Assembly (NCBI GenBank): GCA_938035125.1
Contig: CALHNS010000014.1
Location: forward strand, 1 to 64,000
Direction: 5' to 3'
From: an uncultured Granulosicoccaceae bacterium
Lineage (GTDB): Bacteria; Pseudomonadota; Gammaproteobacteria; Granulosicoccales; Granulosicoccaceae
DNA: 64,000 nucleotides
Shown here: piece after piece, positions 31,684-43,430 of the stretch
How the letters are laid out: every line of letters begins with the position of its first letter
Numbering within the stretch: the first letter of the stretch is position 1
Made by a program: the position numbers and the translations under genes
Notes under the pieces: generated by a model
Told to the model about the DNA's origin: nothing
The model's input: the letters and a program-made list of their open reading frames with translations, nothing else
Database searches by the model: none

Positions 31684-32946
31684 ATGCATTACGTGGTTAT
31701 CGGAGCCGGTCCAGCGGGCGTTAACGCAGCAGAGCACCTTCGAAAAAACGATCCGTCTGGGGAAATCACTTTGCTTGCGGCTGAAGATGCGCCGCCTTAT
31801 TCGCGCATGGCGCTGCCGTATTTTCTGGTGGGTAATATCTCGGCCGAAGGCACCTATTTGCGAAAAGATGCAGATCATTACTCTCGGCTGGGTATTAATG
31901 TTCGACATGCGCGGGTCAGTTCGGTAGATACCGGAGCAAAATCCATCCAATTGTTAGGCGGCGATAGTTTGGCGTACGACAAGCTGCTGGTCGCTACGGG
32001 TGCAACCGCTGTGAAACCGCCCGTGCCTGGTATTGATTTGGAAGGTGTTTACAACTGCTGGTCTTTGGCTGATGCCCACAAAATCATTGATCGCGCAGCG
32101 CCTGGGTCGAATGTCATTCTGATGGGTGCAGGCTTTATCGGTTGCATCATTCTAGAGGCACTAGCGGCTCGAAAAGTTAACTTAACGGTTATCGAGATGG
32201 AAGATCGCATGGTGTCGCGCATGACCAATGAAACCATGGGCAACATGATTAAGTCATGGTGTGAAGATAAAGGCATCACGGTGCTTACCGGTACCCGAGT
32301 TGATTCCATCGAAGAAAATGGTGGCGCTTTATCGGTCGCAACGAACACCAGCAAGACTCTGCCCGCCGATTTGGTGATCTGCGCCACTGGCGTGCGTTCC
32401 AATACCGCGTTTTTAGATAAAAGCAATATAAAAATTGACATGGGCATAGTGGTTGATGACTTCATGCAAACCAGTGTTGCCGATGTGTACGCCGCTGGCG
32501 ATGTGGCCCAAGGCAAAGATTTATCAACGGGCGACTATTACGTGCAAGCTATTCAGCCCACCGCGGTTGAGCATGCAAAGCTTGCTGCTTGGAGTATGGT
32601 TCATGGTCATACCAGCCCAACTCCGGGTAAGTTGAATATGAACGTTCTCGATACGGTGGGTCTTATCTCCACATCGTTTGGTTTGTGGATGGGCACCGAC
32701 GGTGGTGAAGAGGCGGAACTGGTCGACACAGAGCGGTATAAATATCTAAATTTGCAGTTCAAAGACGATGTTTTAGTGGGTGCCAGCAGTTTAGGCATGA
32801 CGCAGCATGTAGGATGTATGCGAGGTCTTATCCAAACCGGTGCTCGTTTGGGCGATTGGAAAGATAAATTGCTGGAAGAGCCGAATCGTTTGCCAGAAGC
32901 CTATCTTGCTAGTGCGCAGGCTCAGAACAAAACGCTGGAGCGTTAA
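31684..32946 (+). CDS. aorC: FAD/NAD(P)-dependent oxidoreductase, AorC-like
   Basis: Pyridine nucleotide-disulphide oxidoreductase fold. FAD-binding GAGPAGVNAAEHL at the N-terminus, second dinucleotide site LMGAGFIGCIILEAL about residue 150, and the FAD-binding YAAGDVAQG about residue 280. ATG 31684 is taken because it places the FAD loop at the N-terminus and a cggag site precedes it; the frame from 31627 adds a non-family leader. 420 aa fits the FAD subunit of bacterial aldehyde oxidoreductase, which passes electrons to NAD. The assignment rests on size, fold, its MoaD/MoaA neighbours and the AOR genes downstream; alone it would be called a generic nitrite-/rubredoxin-reductase-like flavoprotein. 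Confidence 0.85.
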   Translation: MHYVVIGAGPAGVNAAEHLRKNDPSGEITLLAAEDAPPYSRMALPYFLVGNISAEGTYLRKDADHYSRLGINVRHARVSSVDTGAKSIQLLGGDSLAYDKLLVATGATAVKPPVPGIDLEGVYNCWSLADAHKIIDRAAPGSNVILMGAGFIGCIILEALAARKVNLTVIEMEDRMVSRMTNETMGNMIKSWCEDKGITVLTGTRVDSIEENGGALSVATNTSKTLPADLVICATGVRSNTAFLDKSNIKIDMGIVVDDFMQTSVADVYAAGDVAQGKDLSTGDYYVQAIQPTAVEHAKLAAWSMVHGHTSPTPGKLNMNVLDTVGLISTSFGLWMGTDGGEEAELVDTERYKYLNLQFKDDVLVGASSLGMTQHVGCMRGLIQTGARLGDWKDKLLEEPNRLPEAYLASAQAQNKTLER

Positions 32947-32959
32947 TTAAGTAAACCCT

Positions 32960-33214
32960 ATGCAAATAACATTGAAACTTTATGCCACGTTGTCTGATCT
33001 GCTGCCTTCGGGCGCGGTTAAGAACGCTGCCAAAATTTCGGTGGACGAAGACGTAACACTGAACCGCATCATTGATCAATACAAAGTGCCACGAGAATTA
33101 GCCCACTTGGTTTTGGTTAATGGTCATTTTGTTTGTGATACCGATCGCGATCAAACCGGTGCCTTGGTAGAAGGTGATGTACTTGCTATTTGGCCACCCG
33201 TTGCCGGTGGATAA
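32960..33214 (+). CDS. MoaD/ThiS-family sulphur carrier
   Basis: 84-residue beta-grasp protein that ends in the Gly-Gly tail (WPPVAGG) which is activated to a thiocarboxylate. MoaD proteins donate sulphur to form the dithiolene of molybdopterin. Here it lies beside a dedicated MoaA and an AOR oxidoreductase gene, suggesting a pathway-specific copy for a tungsten cofactor. 13 nt after the FAD gene. Confidence 0.9.
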   Translation: MQITLKLYATLSDLLPSGAVKNAAKISVDEDVTLNRIIDQYKVPRELAHLVLVNGHFVCDTDRDQTGALVEGDVLAIWPPVAGG

Positions 33215-33220
33215 TATTTT

Positions 33221-33514
33221 ATGACTGCCGAGAATTTTTCTAAAGAGATGGGTGTTAGCCACGCCGATTTTTTTCGCCTTTTGCCGCGCGCCATGGGGGA
33301 TACCCCTTTTACGGTTCAAGGTATGAAAGTAATGGGGGAATTATCCGGTGGTGGTGCGGTAACCATTGAGATCGGCGAGCAACAGGTTCGACGAATTGCA
33401 CTGATGGCCATTCCATTTGCCGAGGTTAGTTTTTCATTTACTAACGTGAGTGAAGATGATCGCACCCAGTTTATGCAGTACTTCGACTTACGTTTTCAAC
33501 GTGGTGGTGGTTAA
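33221..33514 (+). CDS. Unknown 97-aa protein with C-terminal Gly-Gly-Gly
   Basis: No family recognised. The start MTAENFSKEMGVSHADFF leads into a compact alpha/beta sequence (GGGAVTIEIGEQQVRR, ALMAIPFAEVSFSFTNVS). It ends in RGGG, a free flexible glycine tail like that of ubiquitin-like carriers, though the beta-grasp pattern is not evident. Embedded 6 nt after moaD-like and 5 nt before moaA, it is very likely part of the same cofactor/AOR unit. Confidence 0.82.
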   Translation: MTAENFSKEMGVSHADFFRLLPRAMGDTPFTVQGMKVMGELSGGGAVTIEIGEQQVRRIALMAIPFAEVSFSFTNVSEDDRTQFMQYFDLRFQRGGG

Positions 33515-33519
33515 GCGCT

Positions 33520-34554
33520 ATGAGTGATGAAAGCATGCAAAACCCAAGCACTGTGGTGGATAAACTCTATCGCCCATTGCATGATTTGCGTGTATCAGTG
33601 ACCGATCGATGCAATTTTCGCTGTGTGTATTGCATGCCTAAATCGGTTTTCAATAAAGACTACAAATTTTTAAATCGTGATGAAATTCTGTCTTGGGACC
33701 ACATCGTTGATGTGGTAAAGGCTGCAGCCCCTTTGGGGGTTCGAAAGGTTCGATTAACCGGTGGCGAGCCGCTGATTAGAAATGACTTAGAAGAGCTTAT
33801 AGATCGCATTGTCTCGGTTGATGGCATCACAGATATCAGCATGACAACCAATGCCGCTTTGTTAACACGTAAGCGCGCCGAATCATTAAATCAAGCTGGG
33901 CTCAAAAGAATTAACGTAAGTTTGGATGCGATGGACGATAAAACCTTTCGCGCCATGAACGACATGAACGTTGATGTCTCTTCTGTGCTAACCGGTATTG
34001 ATAACGCTGTGGCGGCAGGCATTGAAAACGTCAAAGTAAATATGGTGGTTAAGAAGGGGCTGAACGATCACAGTATTTTGCCCATGGCCCAGCATTTTCA
34101 TGGCACCAATCAAACATTACGTTTTATTGAATTTATGGATGTTGGGAATTCCAATGCTTGGGATTTAACCGATGTGGTGACAAGCCAGCAAATTGCCGAT
34201 GCAATCAATCAGGAATTACCGATTGAACCGGTTGAGGCGAACTATCGCGGCGAAGTTGCAAAGCGCTGGCGTTACGTCGATGGTGGTGGTGAAATTGGCA
34301 TCATCAGCTCGGTGTCCGACCCCTTTTGCGGTGATTGCAGCCGAGCTCGATTGTCAGCCACCGGTAGCATATACACCTGCCTATTTGCCAGTGAAGGCCA
34401 TGATCTACGATCTGTTTTAGAAAAAAACGATGCGCAGTTGTTAGAGAATCATCTGAAGCGAATTTGGCAGGTGCGTGAAGATCGTTATTCAGAAACTCGC
34501 ACACAAGTGGTCACCTTGCGCCCTAAAGTGGAAATGTCCTTTATCGGCGGCTGA
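33520..34554 (+). CDS. moaA: GTP 3',8-cyclase MoaA (radical SAM)
   Basis: First enzyme of molybdenum/tungsten pterin cofactor synthesis. Radical-SAM cluster motif DRCNFRCVYCMP, GGEPLIR, and the second cluster region FCGDCSRARLSATGSIYTC, ending in the family's catalytic Gly-Gly (FIGG). 344 aa is normal. No moaC, moaE or mogA lies nearby, so this copy may serve the local AOR-type enzyme with the rest of the pathway encoded elsewhere. Confidence 0.96.
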   Translation: MSDESMQNPSTVVDKLYRPLHDLRVSVTDRCNFRCVYCMPKSVFNKDYKFLNRDEILSWDHIVDVVKAAAPLGVRKVRLTGGEPLIRNDLEELIDRIVSVDGITDISMTTNAALLTRKRAESLNQAGLKRINVSLDAMDDKTFRAMNDMNVDVSSVLTGIDNAVAAGIENVKVNMVVKKGLNDHSILPMAQHFHGTNQTLRFIEFMDVGNSNAWDLTDVVTSQQIADAINQELPIEPVEANYRGEVAKRWRYVDGGGEIGIISSVSDPFCGDCSRARLSATGSIYTCLFASEGHDLRSVLEKNDAQLLENHLKRIWQVREDRYSETRTQVVTLRPKVEMSFIGG

Positions 34555-34793: not shown

Positions 34794-36023
34794 ATGCAAA
34801 AACATGTTAAAGCACTAGGGCTATCAATGGCCTTGGCCGTACCCCAAATGGCCACATCAGCTGATCTTGAAGTCACCCATTGGTGGACATCAGGTGGAGA
34901 GGCTGCTGCGGTAAAAGAATTCGCCAAAGCATTTAATGCAACCGGCAATAATTGGGTTGACGGCGCTATTGCAGGTTCTGGTGGAACCGCTCGTCCGATC
35001 ATTATCAGTCGTATTCTGGGTGGTGACCCCATGGCGGCAACTCAATTAAATCATGGTCGGCAAGCAGAAGAATTAATCGAAGCAGGCCTTATGACTGACC
35101 TTACCGAGTTGGCTGAAAAAGAAGGTTGGAAAGATATTGTTAATCCGTCGTCTTTACTAGATTCGTGCACGTTCGAAGGGCGCATCTATTGTGTTCCAGT
35201 CAATATTCACTCTGGCCAGTGGATTTGGTTAAGCCACGGAGCATTTGAAACGGCAGGATTGGATGTACCTGCAGATTGGAATGAATTTGTCGCCGCCGCA
35301 CCAAAATTAGAAGAAGCTGGCATTTTGCCGCTAGCAATGGGGCAGCAAGGTTGGCAACAGAATCTTGCATTCGGCGCAATCACCATTGGTGTTGCAGGTA
35401 TCGATGCTTGGCGAAAAGTTTCGGTTGAGCGAGATGCATCGGCAGCTGCTGGCCCTGAATACAAGGCCGTTTTCGAAGCGGTAGCCGCAGCGCGTGAATT
35501 AGCGCGTGAGTCGAACGTTCAAGATTGGAACCAAGCCACTAACTTAGTCATCACCAATAAAGCGGGTGGTCAAATCATGGGTGATTGGGCTCAAGGTGAA
35601 TTTCAAGTTGCAGGACAGGTTGCTGGTAAAGACTACACATGCTTACCAGGGCTGGGTATTAATGAAATCCTAGATACGGGCGGTGATGCTTTCTATTTCC
35701 CCGTTGTTAAGGATGAAGAAACTAAAAAAGCACAGTTAGAGCTAGCCTCTTTGTTGATTTCACCTGAAGTTCAAGTGGCGTTTAACTTAAAGAAAGGCTC
35801 GTTGCCGGTTCGTGGCGACATCGACTTATCTTCAGCCAATGACTGCATGCAGAAAGGGTTAAAGATTTTGGCCGATGGAAACGTCTTGCCATCTGGTGAT
35901 CAAAACTTATCTCCTGATACGCAAACCCAGATTGAAGATTTAATGGCTGAATTTTGGTCTTCAACTATGAGTGCTGCCGATGCTCAAGAAGCCTACGTAG
36001 CGATCATTGCTGATTCTGAGTAA
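34794..36023 (+). CDS. ABC sugar transporter substrate-binding protein
   Basis: Periplasmic receptor of a CUT1-type carbohydrate importer. Signal peptide at residues 1-23 (cleavage near ATSA/DLE), ggaggaag ribosome-binding site directly upstream. Motif-like features LEVTHWWTSGGEAAAV and PVNIHSGQWIWLSHGAFETAGL resemble glucose/mannose and glucoside receptors. First gene of a six-gene sugar operon; the attenuator-like hairpin follows. Confidence 0.93.
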   Translation: MQKHVKALGLSMALAVPQMATSADLEVTHWWTSGGEAAAVKEFAKAFNATGNNWVDGAIAGSGGTARPIIISRILGGDPMAATQLNHGRQAEELIEAGLMTDLTELAEKEGWKDIVNPSSLLDSCTFEGRIYCVPVNIHSGQWIWLSHGAFETAGLDVPADWNEFVAAAPKLEEAGILPLAMGQQGWQQNLAFGAITIGVAGIDAWRKVSVERDASAAAGPEYKAVFEAVAAARELARESNVQDWNQATNLVITNKAGGQIMGDWAQGEFQVAGQVAGKDYTCLPGLGINEILDTGGDAFYFPVVKDEETKKAQLELASLLISPEVQVAFNLKKGSLPVRGDIDLSSANDCMQKGLKILADGNVLPSGDQNLSPDTQTQIEDLMAEFWSSTMSAADAQEAYVAIIADSE

Positions 36024-36050
36024 AACACGCTTTGTGTCGTAGCGATGAGT

Positions 36051-36078
36051 GTGCCTTGCGCGGTTGCGCGCAAGGCAC
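36051..36078 (+). terminator. Strong hairpin between binding-protein and permease genes
   Basis: 11-bp perfect inverted repeat gtgccttgcgc (36051-36061) / gcgcaaggcac (36068-36078), 6-nt loop. It separates the receptor gene from the permeases. No T-run follows, so it more likely stabilises the upstream transcript than terminates it fully, giving more receptor than permease. Confidence 0.6.
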
Positions 36079-36109
36079 ATCATTTCAATAACCTGAGCCA
36101 TTATATTCA

Positions 36110-37012
36110 GTGAATCAAACAAACCATTCGAAGCGGCCTCCGCAGCTTTTTAAAAACTTATCGGCGAAAATTGCGTCCATTCCTATGATTCTCACCACTA
36201 TGGTGGTGTTTGTCGGCGGTACCACTTGGACGGTGGTTCATTCGTTTACTAATTCAAAGTTACTGCCGAAATTAAACTTTGTTGGCTTAGACCAATACGA
36301 GCGCTTGTGGAGTTCTCGTCGTTGGTTGATATCCATTGAGAATTTAGCGGTATTCGGGTTTTTCTCGTTAATTCTAATGATGGTGATCGGTTTCTTCCTG
36401 GCCACCTTGTTAGATCGGAAAGTGCGCGGTGAGAATATATTCCGCACCATTTTCTTATACCCGTTTGCGCTGAGTTTCATTGTTACAGGCTTGGCTTGGC
36501 AGTGGATATTGAACCCAGATTTGGGTTTGCAGCAAGTCATGCATGACCTAGGTTGGACAAGTTTTGAATTTAATCCACTGAACAGTGGCGATACAGTGAT
36601 CTACGGATTACTGATTGCAGCGATGTGGCAAGGCACCGGGCTAATCATGGTAATCATGTTGGCGGGTTTACGCGGCATTGATGATGACATTTGGAAAGCT
36701 GCGCGTGTGGACGGAATCGGTACCGTTAAAACGTACATAAAAATTATCATACCGATGATGCGCCCCGTGTTTGTTACTGCCTTGGTTATTGTTGCTAGTG
36801 GCATTATCAAGCTATATGACTTGGTGGTTGCGTTAACGAACGGCGGGCCTGGTTTGTCCTCTGAAGTACCTGCTAAGTACGTCATTAATTACATGTTTCG
36901 AGCTCAAAACTTAGGTCAAGGTTTTGCAGCTTCCACCATGATGTTGGTAACGGTGGCCATAATTTTGATTCCTTGGGCCTATTTGGAATTTGGAGGAAAA
37001 GATAATGGCTGA
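36110..37012 (+). CDS. ABC sugar transporter permease
   Basis: 300-aa, six-TM MalF-type permease. The EAA loop reads ....IWKAARVDGIGTVKTYIKII and the C-terminal part ALTNGGPGLSSEVPAKY is typical of glucose/mannose CUT1 permeases. GTG start at 36110; no better start exists. Overlaps the next permease start by 8 nt. Confidence 0.94.
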   Translation: MNQTNHSKRPPQLFKNLSAKIASIPMILTTMVVFVGGTTWTVVHSFTNSKLLPKLNFVGLDQYERLWSSRRWLISIENLAVFGFFSLILMMVIGFFLATLLDRKVRGENIFRTIFLYPFALSFIVTGLAWQWILNPDLGLQQVMHDLGWTSFEFNPLNSGDTVIYGLLIAAMWQGTGLIMVIMLAGLRGIDDDIWKAARVDGIGTVKTYIKIIIPMMRPVFVTALVIVASGIIKLYDLVVALTNGGPGLSSEVPAKYVINYMFRAQNLGQGFAASTMMLVTVAIILIPWAYLEFGGKDNG

Positions 37013-37898
37013 TGCGCTCACTGGGCCGTCAGGGCCACCACCTAAAAGAATTTTTTCTCGTACCAATATCATGCTGTACGGCACTTTGTTGGTAGTGTCG
37101 ATATATTACTTGCTGCCGTTGTATGTCATGGTGGTTACATCCCTTAAAGGGATGCCTGAAATTCGACTAGGTAATATTTTTGCACCCCCGTTGGAGGTTA
37201 CGTTTGAGCCTTGGGTTAAAGCCTGGTCAGAAGCGTGTACTGGTATAAATTGCGATGGCTTAAGTCGTGGATTTTGGAATTCGGTAAAAATATTAGTTCC
37301 CTCTTGTGCGCTTTCTATTGCCGTTGCTTCTGTCAACGGATATGCGCTGGCTCGCTGGAAATTCAAAGGCTCAGAATTATTTTTTAGTATTTTAATTGTG
37401 GGCGCTTTCATTCCCTATCAAACTATGTTGTACCCACTCGTAATCATTTTGCGCGAGTTGGGCCTTATGGGAAAATTAGGCGGTCTTGTGCTGGTGCATA
37501 CGGTTTTCGGCATGCCCATCCTTACGTTGTTGTTTAGAAATTACTTTGCAGGAATCCCAGAAGATCTTTTCAAAGCGGCGCGAGTGGACGGTGCAGGGTT
37601 TTGGGGTATTTATTTTCGAATCATGTTGCCGATGTCATTACCGATATTTGTTGTGGCTTTAATACTTCAAGTTACGGGTATTTGGAATGACTTTTTATTT
37701 GGTGTGATTTACACCAAGCCTGCAACGTATCCGATGACCGTGCAGCTGAATAATATCGTTAACTCAGTGCAAGGTATAAAAGAATACAACGTCAATATGG
37801 CTGCAACTCTATTAACGGGTGGCGTGCCACTTATTCTTTATTTTATATCTGGAAAATTATTCGTGCGCGGTATTGCCGCTGGTGCGGTAAAGGGATAG
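37005..37898 (+). CDS. ABC sugar transporter permease (second)
   Basis: 297-aa MalG-type permease with six TM segments and the EAA loop FKAARVDGAGFWGIYFRIMLP. ATG 37005 has an ideal ggagg site at 36992-36996; an upstream in-frame GTG is less likely. Overlaps the previous stop by 8 nt, as usual for coupled permease pairs. Confidence 0.94.
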   Translation: MADALTGPSGPPPKRIFSRTNIMLYGTLLVVSIYYLLPLYVMVVTSLKGMPEIRLGNIFAPPLEVTFEPWVKAWSEACTGINCDGLSRGFWNSVKILVPSCALSIAVASVNGYALARWKFKGSELFFSILIVGAFIPYQTMLYPLVIILRELGLMGKLGGLVLVHTVFGMPILTLLFRNYFAGIPEDLFKAARVDGAGFWGIYFRIMLPMSLPIFVVALILQVTGIWNDFLFGVIYTKPATYPMTVQLNNIVNSVQGIKEYNVNMAATLLTGGVPLILYFISGKLFVRGIAAGAVKG

Positions 37899-37914
37899 GG
37901 GCAAAGGCTTCACT

Positions 37915-38985
37915 ATGAATTCTGTTGAAATTAGAGAGCTGGATCTGTCTTTCGGTACGGTTAATGTTCTTGCTGGGTTAAATCTTGATATTGCTCAAGG
38001 GGAATTTTTAGTTCTTCTGGGTTCTTCAGGGTGCGGGAAGTCAACCTTATTAAATTGCATTGCTGGTTTGTTGGATGTATCGGCTGGGCAAATTTTCATA
38101 CAAGGTAAGAATGTCACCTGGGCGCAACCTAGTGAGCGCGGCATTGGCATGGTATTCCAAAGCTATGCGTTGTATCCGCAAATGACGGTAGAAGGTAATT
38201 TATCGTTTGGTTTGAAAAACCAACGTATGGATAAAGAAGAAATAAAGAAAAGAGTCAGTAAGGCTTCTGAAATACTTCAAATTGAATCGCTGCTTAAGCG
38301 TAAGCCCGCTGCATTGTCAGGTGGGCAGCGCCAGCGAGTCGCTATTGGGCGGGCGTTAGTGCGCGATGTCGATGTATTTTTGTTTGATGAACCTTTGTCT
38401 AATTTAGATGCAAAACTTCGAACCGATTTACGGGTTGAGTTAAAGCTATTGCATCGTAAATTAGGTAACACCATGATTTATGTGACTCACGATCAGGTAG
38501 AGGCAATGACTCTTGCTGATCGCATAGCGGTTATGAAAGATGGTGTCATTCAACAGCTAGGCGACCCCAACACTATTTATTCAAAGCCCACTAATAAATA
38601 CGTTGCAGATTTTATCGGTTCTCCGTCAATGAATTTTTTCAAAGGCCCTGTGGAAAACGGAGCCATGCAAATCAATAACGAATCGGTTAGTTTGGCTAAA
38701 TACGATTTTCATAAACCCTATAACGGTTTAGCCTGGTTGGGTATCAGGCCAGAGCATGTTCGTTCTGGTTCTGATGCAAACGACTGTGACTTTAATGCCA
38801 CAGTGGTGGTTGATTTGGTTGAGCCAATGGGGGCAGATACCCTAGTTTGGTCAACCCTTCAAGATAATCCCTTTCGTTTTCGGGTGGAAGGTCAAACCGA
38901 TATTAAACAGGGCGATAAAATTTCAATTGGCTTTGAAATTGAGCGAACATCGTTATTTGATATAGACACTGAAATTCGCCTTTAA
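37915..38985 (+). CDS. ABC sugar transporter ATP-binding protein (UgpC/MalK type)
   Basis: 356 aa. Walker A GSSGCGKST, Q-loop VFQSYALYPQMT, signature LSGGQRQRVAIGRAL, Walker B DVFLFDEPLSNLDA, H-loop YVTHDQVEA. The C-terminal ~110 residues form a TOBE/OB-type regulatory domain (LGIRPEHVRSG). It energises the preceding two permeases. Confidence 0.96.
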   Translation: MNSVEIRELDLSFGTVNVLAGLNLDIAQGEFLVLLGSSGCGKSTLLNCIAGLLDVSAGQIFIQGKNVTWAQPSERGIGMVFQSYALYPQMTVEGNLSFGLKNQRMDKEEIKKRVSKASEILQIESLLKRKPAALSGGQRQRVAIGRALVRDVDVFLFDEPLSNLDAKLRTDLRVELKLLHRKLGNTMIYVTHDQVEAMTLADRIAVMKDGVIQQLGDPNTIYSKPTNKYVADFIGSPSMNFFKGPVENGAMQINNESVSLAKYDFHKPYNGLAWLGIRPEHVRSGSDANDCDFNATVVVDLVEPMGADTLVWSTLQDNPFRFRVEGQTDIKQGDKISIGFEIERTSLFDIDTEIRL

Positions 38986-39010
38986 TTTATTTCGGTTAAG
39001 TACTCAATTT

Positions 39011-39042
39011 TCATTAACTCATTAACTCATTAACTCATTAGC
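39011..39042 (+). repeat. Four tandem 8-bp units
   Basis: tcattaac three times perfectly, then tcattagc, immediately before the isomerase gene (ATG at 39061) and 25 nt after the ATPase stop. Short-period repeats can change copy number by slippage; because it is in a leader it would change spacing, not frame. Confidence 0.8.
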
Positions 39043-39060
39043 TTATAGGTTTGTTGCGTA

Positions 39061-39807
39061 ATGGTCGTATCCTTCCAATTGTATTCTGCTCGTTCAATGC
39101 CCGATCAGTATTCTTTTTTAAAAGAGCTGGCTAGCTTGGGTTACACACAGGTTGAAGGGTATCCGGGCGTTTTTGAAGATTCTGTTCGTTATAAAGCCGC
39201 GCTGGATGAGGCTGGGTTGTCTATGCCTTCTGCGCACATAGCGTTAGATTCATTAGAATCTGATTTGGATAGCCAGATAAAAATATGCAATACATTGGGC
39301 ATTAAACAGGTTTACGTTCCTTATCTAGATGCAGATAAACGACCCGTTGATAGCGAAGGATATAAAGGTATTGCTCAGCGCATGTCGGTATTGTTAAAGG
39401 CGCTTAGCGATCAGGGAATAAGCTTAGGTTGGCACAATCATGAATTTGAAATGGTGGCCTTGGATGATGGCGGAATCCCAATGGAAGTAATGCTGAATGA
39501 AGCACCCGAGATGAGTTGGGAGGCAGATTTAGCGTGGGTAGCCTTTGCAAAGGCTGATCCGTTTGCTTATGTGGAAAGTTGGGGTTCAAGAATCAGTGCG
39601 GTTCACGTTAAGGATTTAGCCGTTGCCGGTGAAAAAACTGATGAAGATGGTTGGGCTGATGTGGGTGAAGGGGTTATCGGTTGGAAAGCATTGAGTGCAA
39701 AAGTTTGCGAATGTGCGCCCAAGGCATTGCATGTTATGGAGCACGATAATCCTTCTGATGTTATGCGCTTTGCCTCCAAAAGCATTAACAACTACAACTC
39801 CTACTGA
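39061..39807 (+). CDS. Sugar phosphate isomerase/epimerase (xylose-isomerase-like TIM barrel)
   Basis: 248 aa TIM-barrel metal-dependent enzyme: FQLYSARSMPDQYSFLKEL, ISLGWHNHEFEM, SWEADLAWVAFA, VHVKDLAV, EHDNPS. The metal ligands typical of this group (His/Glu/Asp) are apparent in these motifs. Such enzymes in sugar clusters act on keto-sugars or as epimerases. It follows the ABC genes and precedes a dehydrogenase, consistent with catabolism of an imported sugar or glycoside. Confidence 0.9.
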   Translation: MVVSFQLYSARSMPDQYSFLKELASLGYTQVEGYPGVFEDSVRYKAALDEAGLSMPSAHIALDSLESDLDSQIKICNTLGIKQVYVPYLDADKRPVDSEGYKGIAQRMSVLLKALSDQGISLGWHNHEFEMVALDDGGIPMEVMLNEAPEMSWEADLAWVAFAKADPFAYVESWGSRISAVHVKDLAVAGEKTDEDGWADVGEGVIGWKALSAKVCECAPKALHVMEHDNPSDVMRFASKSINNYNSY

Positions 39808-39826
39808 TATCTAAAGGCTCAATTAA

Positions 39827-40954
39827 ATGACTACCAATCTCGGTGTTGGCATTATCGGATGCGGAAATATTTCAAGCGCCTATATGTCGCTAGGGCCTTT
39901 ATTTAAAGGCATTGATGTTAAAGCCTGCGCCGATATGAATATCGACGCTGCCAAAGCGCGTAGTGAAGAATTTGGTATTGATGCGTTAAGCGTTGATGCG
40001 CTTCTCGCTCGTGAAGACATCGATATTGTTGTCAATCTAACGGTCCCTGCTGCCCACTTTGAAATCGGCATGCGGGTTTTAGATGCGGGTAAGCATCTTT
40101 ATTCTGAAAAACCGTTTGTGTTAAGTGTTTCTGAAGGTGAGCAGCTATTAGCAAAAGCATCGGCATCTGATTTACGCATAGGCTCTGCGCCAGATACTTT
40201 TCTTGGAGGCTCACACCAATTGGCTCGTCACTTAATCGACCAAGGAGAGGTTGGTAAAATTCTATCGGGCACCGCAATTGTGCAAGGTCATGGCATGGAA
40301 GATTGGCATCCTAATCCCGATTTTTTCTTTTTGCCTGGTGCAGGGCCTGTGTTGGATATCGGCCCTTATTACATATCCAATCTGGTGCAGTTAATTGGTC
40401 CTGTTAAAGAAGTGCTGGCGATGTCCAGCACGGCGCAAAGTGAAAGAACCATTGGTAATGGTCCGCGATTAGGTGAACAAGTGCCTGTAAAAACGCCCAC
40501 AACTATCCACGCAATCTTGCGCTTTGAGAACGGCGCTCAGATAACGTTATTAACGTCTTGGGATGTGTGGTCGCATTCGCATAGCAATATGGAGTTGTAT
40601 GGGGAGCTCGGGAGTTTGTTTATTCCCGATCCGAATTTTTTTGGTGGTGAGGTTCACGTAACTAAAAAAGCGGAGAATGTGGCTTTACCCACTTGGGAAC
40701 ACCCATTTTTGAAAGAGAACTTTGGAGACGACAACGAGCACGCCAACTACCGAGGCGCAGGCTTATCGGATATGGCGTTAGCGATCCAAGAAGATCGTGC
40801 CCATCGCTGTTCGGCAGAATTCTCTCATCATGTTGTGGATGTCATGACGTCCATTCTTACAGCGGGAGAGACGGGCGGTCTAGTTTCTATCAGCACGCGT
40901 TGTGAGCGGCCCGAGCCGTTAGATGGTTCGGCTGCGGTTGCTTTAATGGTGTAA
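39827..40954 (+). CDS. Gfo/Idh/MocA family NAD(P)-dependent oxidoreductase
   Basis: N-terminal Rossmann domain (GVGIIGCGNISSAYMSL), followed by EKPFVLSVSEGEQLL (the EKP motif with catalytic-region Lys) and a C-terminal beta-sheet domain with GPVLDIGPYYISNLVQL. Members oxidise sugars or glycosides at a hydroxyl carbon. 375 aa is typical. End of the sugar operon; together with the isomerase it suggests oxidation of an imported carbohydrate to a 3-keto or related product (inference). Confidence 0.92.
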   Translation: MTTNLGVGIIGCGNISSAYMSLGPLFKGIDVKACADMNIDAAKARSEEFGIDALSVDALLAREDIDIVVNLTVPAAHFEIGMRVLDAGKHLYSEKPFVLSVSEGEQLLAKASASDLRIGSAPDTFLGGSHQLARHLIDQGEVGKILSGTAIVQGHGMEDWHPNPDFFFLPGAGPVLDIGPYYISNLVQLIGPVKEVLAMSSTAQSERTIGNGPRLGEQVPVKTPTTIHAILRFENGAQITLLTSWDVWSHSHSNMELYGELGSLFIPDPNFFGGEVHVTKKAENVALPTWEHPFLKENFGDDNEHANYRGAGLSDMALAIQEDRAHRCSAEFSHHVVDVMTSILTAGETGGLVSISTRCERPEPLDGSAAVALMV

Positions 40955-41082: not shown

Positions 41083-41556
41083 ATGCAAAAGTCCCTGCAC
41101 ATTGATCCAGGCAAGTGTACTGGTTGCCTGCAATGCGAATCGGCTTGTTCGCTTGAAAACGAAGGGCTCTTCAACCCTTCAAAATCCCGAATTAAGGTTT
41201 TTACCTTCCATGATGAGGGCCGTTTCGTTCCTTATACCTGCACTCAATGCGATGAAGCCTGGTGCATGCAAGCCTGCCCGGTGGATGCCATTGTTCTGAA
41301 CCCCCTTAATGGTTCGAAAGATGTGAAATCCGATGTATGCGTAGGTTGTAAGGTCTGCACCATCGCCTGCCCGTTCGGTACTATCAACTACAACGCCGAT
41401 ACCGGCAAAGTAATCAAGTGCGATCTTTGCGGCGGAGATCCTGCGTGTGCGACAGCATGCCCAACCGATGCCATTTCTTACATTGACGCCAATGCAACTG
41501 GCCTCGATAAAATGCGTGCGTGGGCGGCTAAAACCGACAACACAGCTAACGCCTAA
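41083..41556 (+). CDS. aorA: Four-cluster ferredoxin subunit, AorA-like
   Basis: 157 aa with 16 cysteines in four groups: C12/15/18/22, C53/56/61/65, C86/89/92/96 and C113/116/122/126, enough for four [4Fe-4S] clusters. This matches the electron-transfer subunit of bacterial aldehyde oxidoreductase. ATG 41083 has an excellent ggagg site; the open frame upstream from 41008 is rejected. Directly upstream of the catalytic subunit gene. Confidence 0.93.
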   Translation: MQKSLHIDPGKCTGCLQCESACSLENEGLFNPSKSRIKVFTFHDEGRFVPYTCTQCDEAWCMQACPVDAIVLNPLNGSKDVKSDVCVGCKVCTIACPFGTINYNADTGKVIKCDLCGGDPACATACPTDAISYIDANATGLDKMRAWAAKTDNTANA

Positions 41557-41573
41557 TAACCGGAGACACAAGC

Positions 41574-43430
41574 ATGGCCTGGACAAGAAAACTCCTGCGC
41601 GTGAACCTCACCGCTGGCACCATCACCGAAGAAGCGCTCAATATGCAATGGGCGAACGACTACCTCGGGCAACGTGGTTTAGCCACACGCTACTTAGTTG
41701 AAGAAATCGACCCTACCTGCGACCCATTAGGGCCCGACAACAAATTCATCATGGCAACCGGCCCCTTAACCGGCACCAATGCATCCACAGCAGGGCGTTA
41801 CTCCTGTTTGTGTAAAAGCCCACTAACCAACGCGCTTGCGTGTTCGAATTCTGGTGGTTTTTTTGGTGCTGAAATGAAGTTTGCTGGTTGGGACATGATC
41901 ATTTTCGAAGGCAAAGCCTCCAGCCCGATGTACATGAACATCGAAAACGACAAAGCAGAATTGCTACCAGCCGATGATATGTGGGGAAAATCGGTGTGGG
42001 AAGCGGACAAAATGCTACGTACCAAGCACACAGACCCCCAAGTTCGTATCGCAGCCGTGGGTCGAAGCGCTGAAGAAGGCAATTTATACGCAGCGGTGGT
42101 TAATGACTTGCATCGTGCGGCAGGTAGAAGTGGTGTGGGCACGGTTATGGCGTCCAAAAACCTTAAAGCGGTGGTTATTCGTGGCACCAAAGGCGTTGGT
42201 AATGTCGATAACCCGAAAGCCTTTATGGAAACCACTAACGCAGGTAAAGCGGTATTAGCTGAAAACCCTGTTACTGGGCAAGGCCTACCCACTTACGGCA
42301 CGCAAGTGTTGATGAACGTAATCAATGAGGTTGGCGCGTTGCCTACTCGCAACATGCGTGAAACGCAATTCGAGGGTGCGGCTGATGTTTCGGGTGAAGC
42401 AATGCACGAACCTAGAAAATCTGATGGTAAGCCAAACTTAACCACCAACGGTGCGTGTTACGCCTGCACCATTGCGTGTGGTCGAATATCTACTATCGAT
42501 CGAACTCACTTCTCGGTAAAAGACAAGCCTGAATACTGGATCGCCTCTGGTGGGCTTGAGTATGAAGCCGCTTGGGCTTTGGGCCCCGATACGGGAGTGG
42601 ATGATATAGATGCACTCACCTACGTTAACTTCTTGTGCAACGAAGACGGTATGGATCCAATCTCATTTGGTTCAACCGTTGCCGCTGCCATGGAATTGTT
42701 TGAAGAAGGCGCCATAACGACAGAGCATACCGGTGGGGTTGAACTGAAATTTGGTTCTGCTGAAGCACTGTGTTGGGCAGCTGAAATGACAGCCAAGGGC
42801 GAGGGCTTCGGTAAAGACATTGGCCTGGGTTCAAAGCGTTTATGTGAAAAGTACGGCCGACCTGAATTATCCATGACGGTTAAAGGGCAAGAATTTCCCG
42901 CCTACGATCCTCGTGGCATTCAAGGTATGGGCTTGGCTTATGCCACATCAAACCGTGGTGCGTGTCACTTACGTGGTTACACAGTTGCCTCTGAAATTTT
43001 GGGTATTCCTGAGAAAACCGATCCACTGGAAACTGCTGGTAAGCCGGGTTTGGTTAAGGCCTTCCAAGATGCTACTGCGGCCGTTGATTCAGCTGGTCTG
43101 TGCGTGTTCACTACCTTTGCATGGACGATGGATGACATCGCGCCACAGGTTGATGCCGCGTGTGAAGGCGATTGGTCTGCTGAGCGCATGATGGAAGTGG
43201 GTGAACGTATCTGGAATATGGAACGTGTGTTCAATGCCGCAGCCGGTGTGGGTGGTGATCAAGATACCTTGCCACCACGACTACTCAATGATGGCGCAAA
43301 TTCTGGGCCTGCAAAAGGTAAGGTCTCTGGCTTGAAAGAGATGTTGCCTGAGTATTATGAACTTCGTGGTTGGAACGCCGATGGTTCTGTTTCAGATGCC
43401 ACTAAGCAAAAGTTCGGACTGCCTGCATAG
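41574..43430 (+). CDS. aorB: Aldehyde:ferredoxin oxidoreductase catalytic subunit, AorB-like
   Basis: 618 aa, the size of the catalytic subunit of bacterial AOR. N-terminal domain with the family's AGRYSCLCKSPLTNA and RAAGRSGVGTVMASKNLKAV. [4Fe-4S] ligands C295, C298, C302 (CYACTIAC) and a probable fourth at C510. H465 (GACHLRGY) matches the position of the active-site His. Known members bind a bis-pterin tungsten cofactor and reversibly oxidise aldehydes to acids. Starts 17 nt after the ferredoxin gene. A strong terminator follows. Whether metal is W or Mo cannot be told. Confidence 0.94.
   Translation: MAWTRKLLRVNLTAGTITEEALNMQWANDYLGQRGLATRYLVEEIDPTCDPLGPDNKFIMATGPLTGTNASTAGRYSCLCKSPLTNALACSNSGGFFGAEMKFAGWDMIIFEGKASSPMYMNIENDKAELLPADDMWGKSVWEADKMLRTKHTDPQVRIAAVGRSAEEGNLYAAVVNDLHRAAGRSGVGTVMASKNLKAVVIRGTKGVGNVDNPKAFMETTNAGKAVLAENPVTGQGLPTYGTQVLMNVINEVGALPTRNMRETQFEGAADVSGEAMHEPRKSDGKPNLTTNGACYACTIACGRISTIDRTHFSVKDKPEYWIASGGLEYEAAWALGPDTGVDDIDALTYVNFLCNEDGMDPISFGSTVAAAMELFEEGAITTEHTGGVELKFGSAEALCWAAEMTAKGEGFGKDIGLGSKRLCEKYGRPELSMTVKGQEFPAYDPRGIQGMGLAYATSNRGACHLRGYTVASEILGIPEKTDPLETAGKPGLVKAFQDATAAVDSAGLCVFTTFAWTMDDIAPQVDAACEGDWSAERMMEVGERIWNMERVFNAAAGVGGDQDTLPPRLLNDGANSGPAKGKVSGLKEMLPEYYELRGWNADGSVSDATKQKFGLPA

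Follow-up and report, generated by a model that had tools for sequence, protein, structure and literature searches.

A small protein with a conserved glycine end encoded beside tungsten aldehyde oxidoreductase genes, a probable AorE-type maturation factor

The synthesis of the tungsten form of the pterin cofactor in cells is poorly known, and a short gene lodged among cofactor genes of an uncultured Granulosicoccaceae bacterium raises the question of whether its product takes part in this process. The window, i.e., the whole stretch of 64,000 nucleotides that was analysed, had been described in an earlier note as carrying a 97-amino-acid open reading frame (ORF) that ends in GGG and is packed between a MoaD-like gene and moaA with gaps of 6 and 5 nucleotides; the ORF itself and the matches of its neighbours to PF02597 and TIGR02666 agree with this description. 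We refer to the gene as X and consider that its product is probably the AorE of the NAD-linked, three-subunit aldehyde oxidoreductase (AOR) AorABC, that is, a maturation factor that would act with AorD in making or loading the pyranopterin of the tungsten cofactor.

Gene X and its surroundings

The product of X terminates in FQRGGG, directly followed by the stop codon. The stop of aorD is located at 33214 and the start of moaA at 33520. The features of the region are the following.

31684..32946, + strand: aorC, FAD/NAD subunit of AOR (Pyr_redox_2, E = 3e-56; located between AOR and MoaD in relatives)
32960..33214, + strand: aorD, MoaD/ThiS-like carrier ending in PPVAGG (PF02597, 28.8 bits)
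33221..33514, + strand: gene X, proposed aorE, 97-amino-acid DUF1952-related protein (ORF; family alignments A1 and A2; family members or the family profile match PF09189 and 1V8C)
33500..33511, + strand: codons of the conserved C-terminal Arg-Gly-Gly-Gly (sequence; GGG in 78 of 79 intact homologues)
33520..34554, + strand: moaA, GTP 3',8-cyclase (TIGR02666, 368 bits, above cut-off)
41083..41556, + strand: aorA, 4Fe-4S subunit of AOR, start codon inferred (ORF; 5' of AOR in relatives)
41574..43430, + strand: aorB, large subunit of the tungsten aldehyde oxidoreductase (ORF; 65-86% identity to the best AOR copies of the class)

X directly follows aorCD in the window and aorAB lies 8 kb downstream, whereas the aor genes are contiguous in most congeners read. 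Genes for sugar ABC transport and sugar metabolism occupy positions 34794-40954, between moaA and aorAB. X is present in a single copy in its own genome, which harbors three genes of the ThiS/MoaD type, aorD being one of them. A scan of genome contigs gave nothing beyond a lone 12-residue match that was discarded as spurious.

Homologues of X were recovered from 19 of the 23 other genomes of the same genus that were searched, and comparison with the nearest congeners yields a dN/dS of about 0.1-0.2, although synonymous positions approach saturation; X is thus a real gene. The window protein has no match in Pfam and only chance-level matches in NCBIfam, so that the earlier statement that no family could be recognised is true of this sequence taken alone. 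Weak matches to DapD, to a capsid protein and to a protochlorophyllide reductase were judged to be due to chance. A single-sequence AlphaFold2 model of the window protein reached a pLDDT of 41, and neither a fold claim nor a fold search was based on it.

A family with a free glycine end

X belongs to a real, widespread and hardly recognised family. Profile searches identified it in 33 of 274 genomes across the class, showed it to be sparse in the phylum sample, and recovered it from another genus, where 42 of 60 genomes carry it; several contigs in the genome sample are short. Plasmid searches with X returned no match. Among the intact homologues read, 78 of 79 end exactly in GGG, the sole exception ending in GLG, and the motif is kept at identities to the window protein as low as about 20-25%. 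By comparison, the same loci contain about 820 further non-overlapping ORFs with at least 80 amino acids, and only one of these ends in this way, which places the glycine end of X far beyond chance and bears out the importance that the earlier note had attached to it. Alignment A1 is invariant only at F88 and G95-G97. Arg or Lys precedes the glycines in the family alignments, and neither a conserved Cys nor a conserved His was found in them. The free GGG end would be the working part of the protein.

A free C-terminal Gly-Gly is the feature that X shares with the sulphur carriers MoaD and ThiS, and passages of a published study describe AorE of Aromatoleum aromaticum as resembling MoaD (PMC6365974). 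A second sulphur carrier of the beta-grasp (ubiquitin/MoaD) type, as considered in the earlier note, is nevertheless very unlikely. Indeed, X does not match the MoaD/ThiS (beta-grasp) sequence profile, the ThiS/MoaD Pfam models match none of the 41 family members tested, and hhalign gives a probability of 0.2% for X against the MoaD profile vs 91% for X, tail included, against the non-MoaD C-terminal part of 1V8C. This structure, a "MoaD related protein" from Thermus, is the best PDB match of the X family profile (E = 0.08; residues 124-168, including the terminal RGGG). With a composite MoaD+X profile, 1V8C became the top match (E = 2e-4) and outranked genuine MoaD structures; the alignment extends from PPVAGG, where MoaD ends, across the MoaD-X junction and through X. 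With alignment A2, the match of the X part alone to the C-terminal domain of 1V8C persists without the tail, as none of 20,000 shuffles reached the score. The corresponding Pfam family, PF09189 (DUF1952), has a cut-off of 22 bits, which is exceeded by one family member (L119, 25.8 bits) and narrowly missed by another (L040, 21.2 bits); the window protein does not match it. The term DUF1952 was not found in the literature searched.

As judged from these profile comparisons, X is the counterpart not of MoaD but of the second domain in a Thermus protein in which MoaD and X are naturally fused, and we infer that it does not adopt the beta-grasp fold. The fusion of both domains in Thermus may account for the resemblance to MoaD that has been attributed to AorE.

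Association with the tungsten aldehyde oxidoreductase

The distribution of X follows that of AOR. Across the class, AOR of the window type is present in 36 of 274 genomes, X in 33 and both in 31 (Fisher p = 2e-33), and most neighbourhoods show the order 4Fe-4S protein, AOR, FAD oxidoreductase, MoaD-like protein and X (aorA-B-C-D-X), followed in the genus of the window by moaA. The link to AOR that the earlier note had proposed, and had suggested checking by co-occurrence, is thereby upheld: AOR accompanies X in 31 of its 33 genomes, and most operons place X after aorD. In the remaining two genomes, which lack AOR, X survives only as relics that adjoin moeB and lie near moaA; one genome has a frameshifted relic and the other a relic interrupted by a stop. 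AOR occurs without X in five genomes. In four of them, contigs stop before or at the expected site of X; the fifth, G277, carries a complete aorABCD without detectable X. Pairwise distances between X copies correlate with those between AOR copies (Mantel r 0.62, null maximum 0.27), and Mantel r ranges from 0.56 to 0.65 for AOR, the FAD subunit and MoaD (null maximum 0.35). Some AOR operons contain two tandem MoaD-like genes (L109, 3-694; L111, 3384-3966; L074, 3675-4565), one of which ends in EEGGFGG.

Such a strong link to the three-subunit operon could also be expected of a structural or electron-transfer subunit of AOR. Similarly, X is absent beside two-subunit AOR copies, including the second AOR of the window's own genome, which has a MoaD-like gene next to it, and no gene is annotated at the place of X in the two plasmid AOR loci that were read, one from Azospirillum and one from Cetobacterium. 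However, AorD and AorE were missing from the purified AOR of A. aromaticum, as stated in passages of PMC6365974, X has no conserved Cys for Fe-S binding, and it can be located away from AOR, beside tungstate transport genes; we consider a subunit role highly improbable. The MoaD-like gene after the second, two-subunit AOR (L116, 9836-10102; G000:C45) ends in PPIHAG, i.e., without a terminal Gly-Gly. A search for AOR on plasmids returned only records of less than 60% identity.

The transport genes in question were found in genome G089, where X overlaps an ABC transporter gene pair by 4 nt and AOR is encoded elsewhere. The permease and the ATPase scored best or nearly best with the tungstate models TupB, WtpC and TupC, below the equivalog cut-offs. 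G277 and G513 also have TupB-like genes close to their AOR operons. In G687, a transporter close to the operon appeared at first to be of the tungstate type, but it scores as molybdate ModB and was not counted. At another locus (L119, 430-879 and 2400-5240; G085:C94), X is separate from AOR and near a gene resembling a formate dehydrogenase subunit.

X copies of a different kind were identified in five genomes of another genus, in an AOR-free operon with a carboxymuconolactone-decarboxylase-type gene 5' and a HAD hydrolase gene 3' of X. In these operons (L167, 8974-9282; L176, 8974-9282; also L168, L169 and L170), which include an AraC-type regulator, the protein ends in THRGGG. Divergent X copies are present in G022 and G031; the one in G022 (L086, 8968-9258; contig C30) ends in RCGGG and lies among universal-stress-type genes. 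The earlier note had looked to homologues without tail and without AOR or Moco genes as evidence against its proposal: copies free of AOR do exist, but they retain the tail. Both kinds of copies would suit a general small protein that serves several pathways, AOR being its main use in one lineage. We regard this as unlikely, since four of the five genomes with the AOR-free operon also have a second X of the usual kind, which gives the AOR-free copies the look of paralogues, and since AOR is found in 31 of the 33 X genomes of the class sample.

In A. aromaticum EbN1 (aorABCDE), aorD and aorE follow aorABC and are proposed, in passages of PMC6365974, as putative maturation factors of the tungsten cofactor. 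X takes the position directly after aorABCD in relatives and, by this operon position, is most likely AorE (WP_041646407 in A. aromaticum). This placement supports the role in cofactor assembly that had been suggested from the window alone. Expression data are available for aorD and aorE jointly, with one value per construct: AOR activity was 4.5 U/mg with aorABC and reached 16 U/mg when both genes were co-expressed, or 85 U/mg when tungstate was supplied as well; without the tungstate supply, their co-expression lowered W from 1.06 to 0.39, whereas P increased from 5.2 to 8.9 (PMC9295118). The native AOR enzyme is active at a P of only 5.1. By our arithmetic on the values of PMC9295118, activity per W increased roughly tenfold with aorDE, which points to the completeness of the cofactor rather than to metal insertion. 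The role in tungsten insertion proposed in the earlier note is hence not favoured, as aorDE raised activity without raising W. Against the assignment to AorE stand the absence of X from G277, the AOR-free operon of the five genomes and the divergent copy among stress-protein-like genes.

Possible role of the tail and comparison with known systems

As a maturation factor, X may be a small, probably non-catalytic partner of AorD dedicated to AOR, which would bind AorD and offer its flexible GGG end to the active site of a further protein. The most likely partner would be a MoeB-type E1 enzyme, activating the terminal carboxylate of X as it does that of MoaD, so that X would carry sulphur. Such activation is favoured by the exactly terminal position of the tail and by the presence of moeB nearby in several genomes. 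In two genomes moeB is the next gene 3' of X, in the same orientation, and a third has a moeB homologue convergent with X; the MoeB assignment exceeds the NCBIfam cut-off for three of these neighbouring proteins. On the other hand, AorD by itself would lead one to expect moeB neighbours.

Alternatively, the tail may dock non-covalently into a pocket of a pterin-synthesis enzyme or of AOR. X would then act as a chaperone or adaptor and hold AorD or apo-AorB, its glycines plugging the cofactor pocket without being activated, which is a finer variant within the maturation-factor explanation. Docking would agree with the profile comparison that sets X apart from the beta-grasp carriers, the known E1 substrate MoaD among them, and it would be consistent with the lack of conserved Cys and His, with the Arg or Lys ahead of the glycines and with the fusion of the X domain to MoaD in Thermus. 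Nevertheless, glycines that are exactly C-terminal in 78 of 79 copies go beyond the usual demands of docking, and we hold this variant to be possible without being probable.

An activated tail could even make X a sulphur carrier outside the beta-grasp fold, which would bear a thiocarboxylate beside AorD, two different carriers then building the AOR cofactor. Where X is fused to MoaD, as in Thermus, the X end would be the only free one. A precedent for E1 chemistry on substrates without the beta-grasp fold is provided by MccB, an E1-like enzyme whose substrate is a short peptide. Such a carrier is put forward here only tentatively. If the tail of X is indeed activated, the chemistry of E1 enzymes and carriers would reach past the beta-grasp carriers. 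The family as now defined is widely conserved and presents one obvious working feature, its free RGGG end; it has a relative of known structure (1V8C), and a published expression system is suited to testing the step.

Several known systems come close to X. AorE of A. aromaticum EbN1 shares its position after aorABCD and its putative role in maturation of the tungsten cofactor, but the passages of PMC6365974 describe it by its resemblance to MoaD, with mention of neither the GGG end nor DUF1952. Genes for MoaD and MoeB linked to AOR were noted in 2006, Thermus being among the organisms, and X is not mentioned in the corresponding passages (PMC1779556). The DUF1952 domain of Thermus 1V8C shares with X the family-profile match at residues 124-168 and the terminal RGGG; it is fused to MoaD, whereas X is a stand-alone gene and the window protein is not reached by the Pfam model. 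The sulphur carriers MoaD and ThiS are, like X, small proteins with free C-terminal glycines encoded beside moa or moeB genes, but they show no detectable sequence or profile similarity to X, for which bearing a thiocarboxylate is only putative. Finally, WorX is also small and has been assigned a putative part in processing the pterin of tungsten oxidoreductases, next to which it is encoded; being ThiS-like, it is the counterpart of AorD and not of X (PMC13328260).
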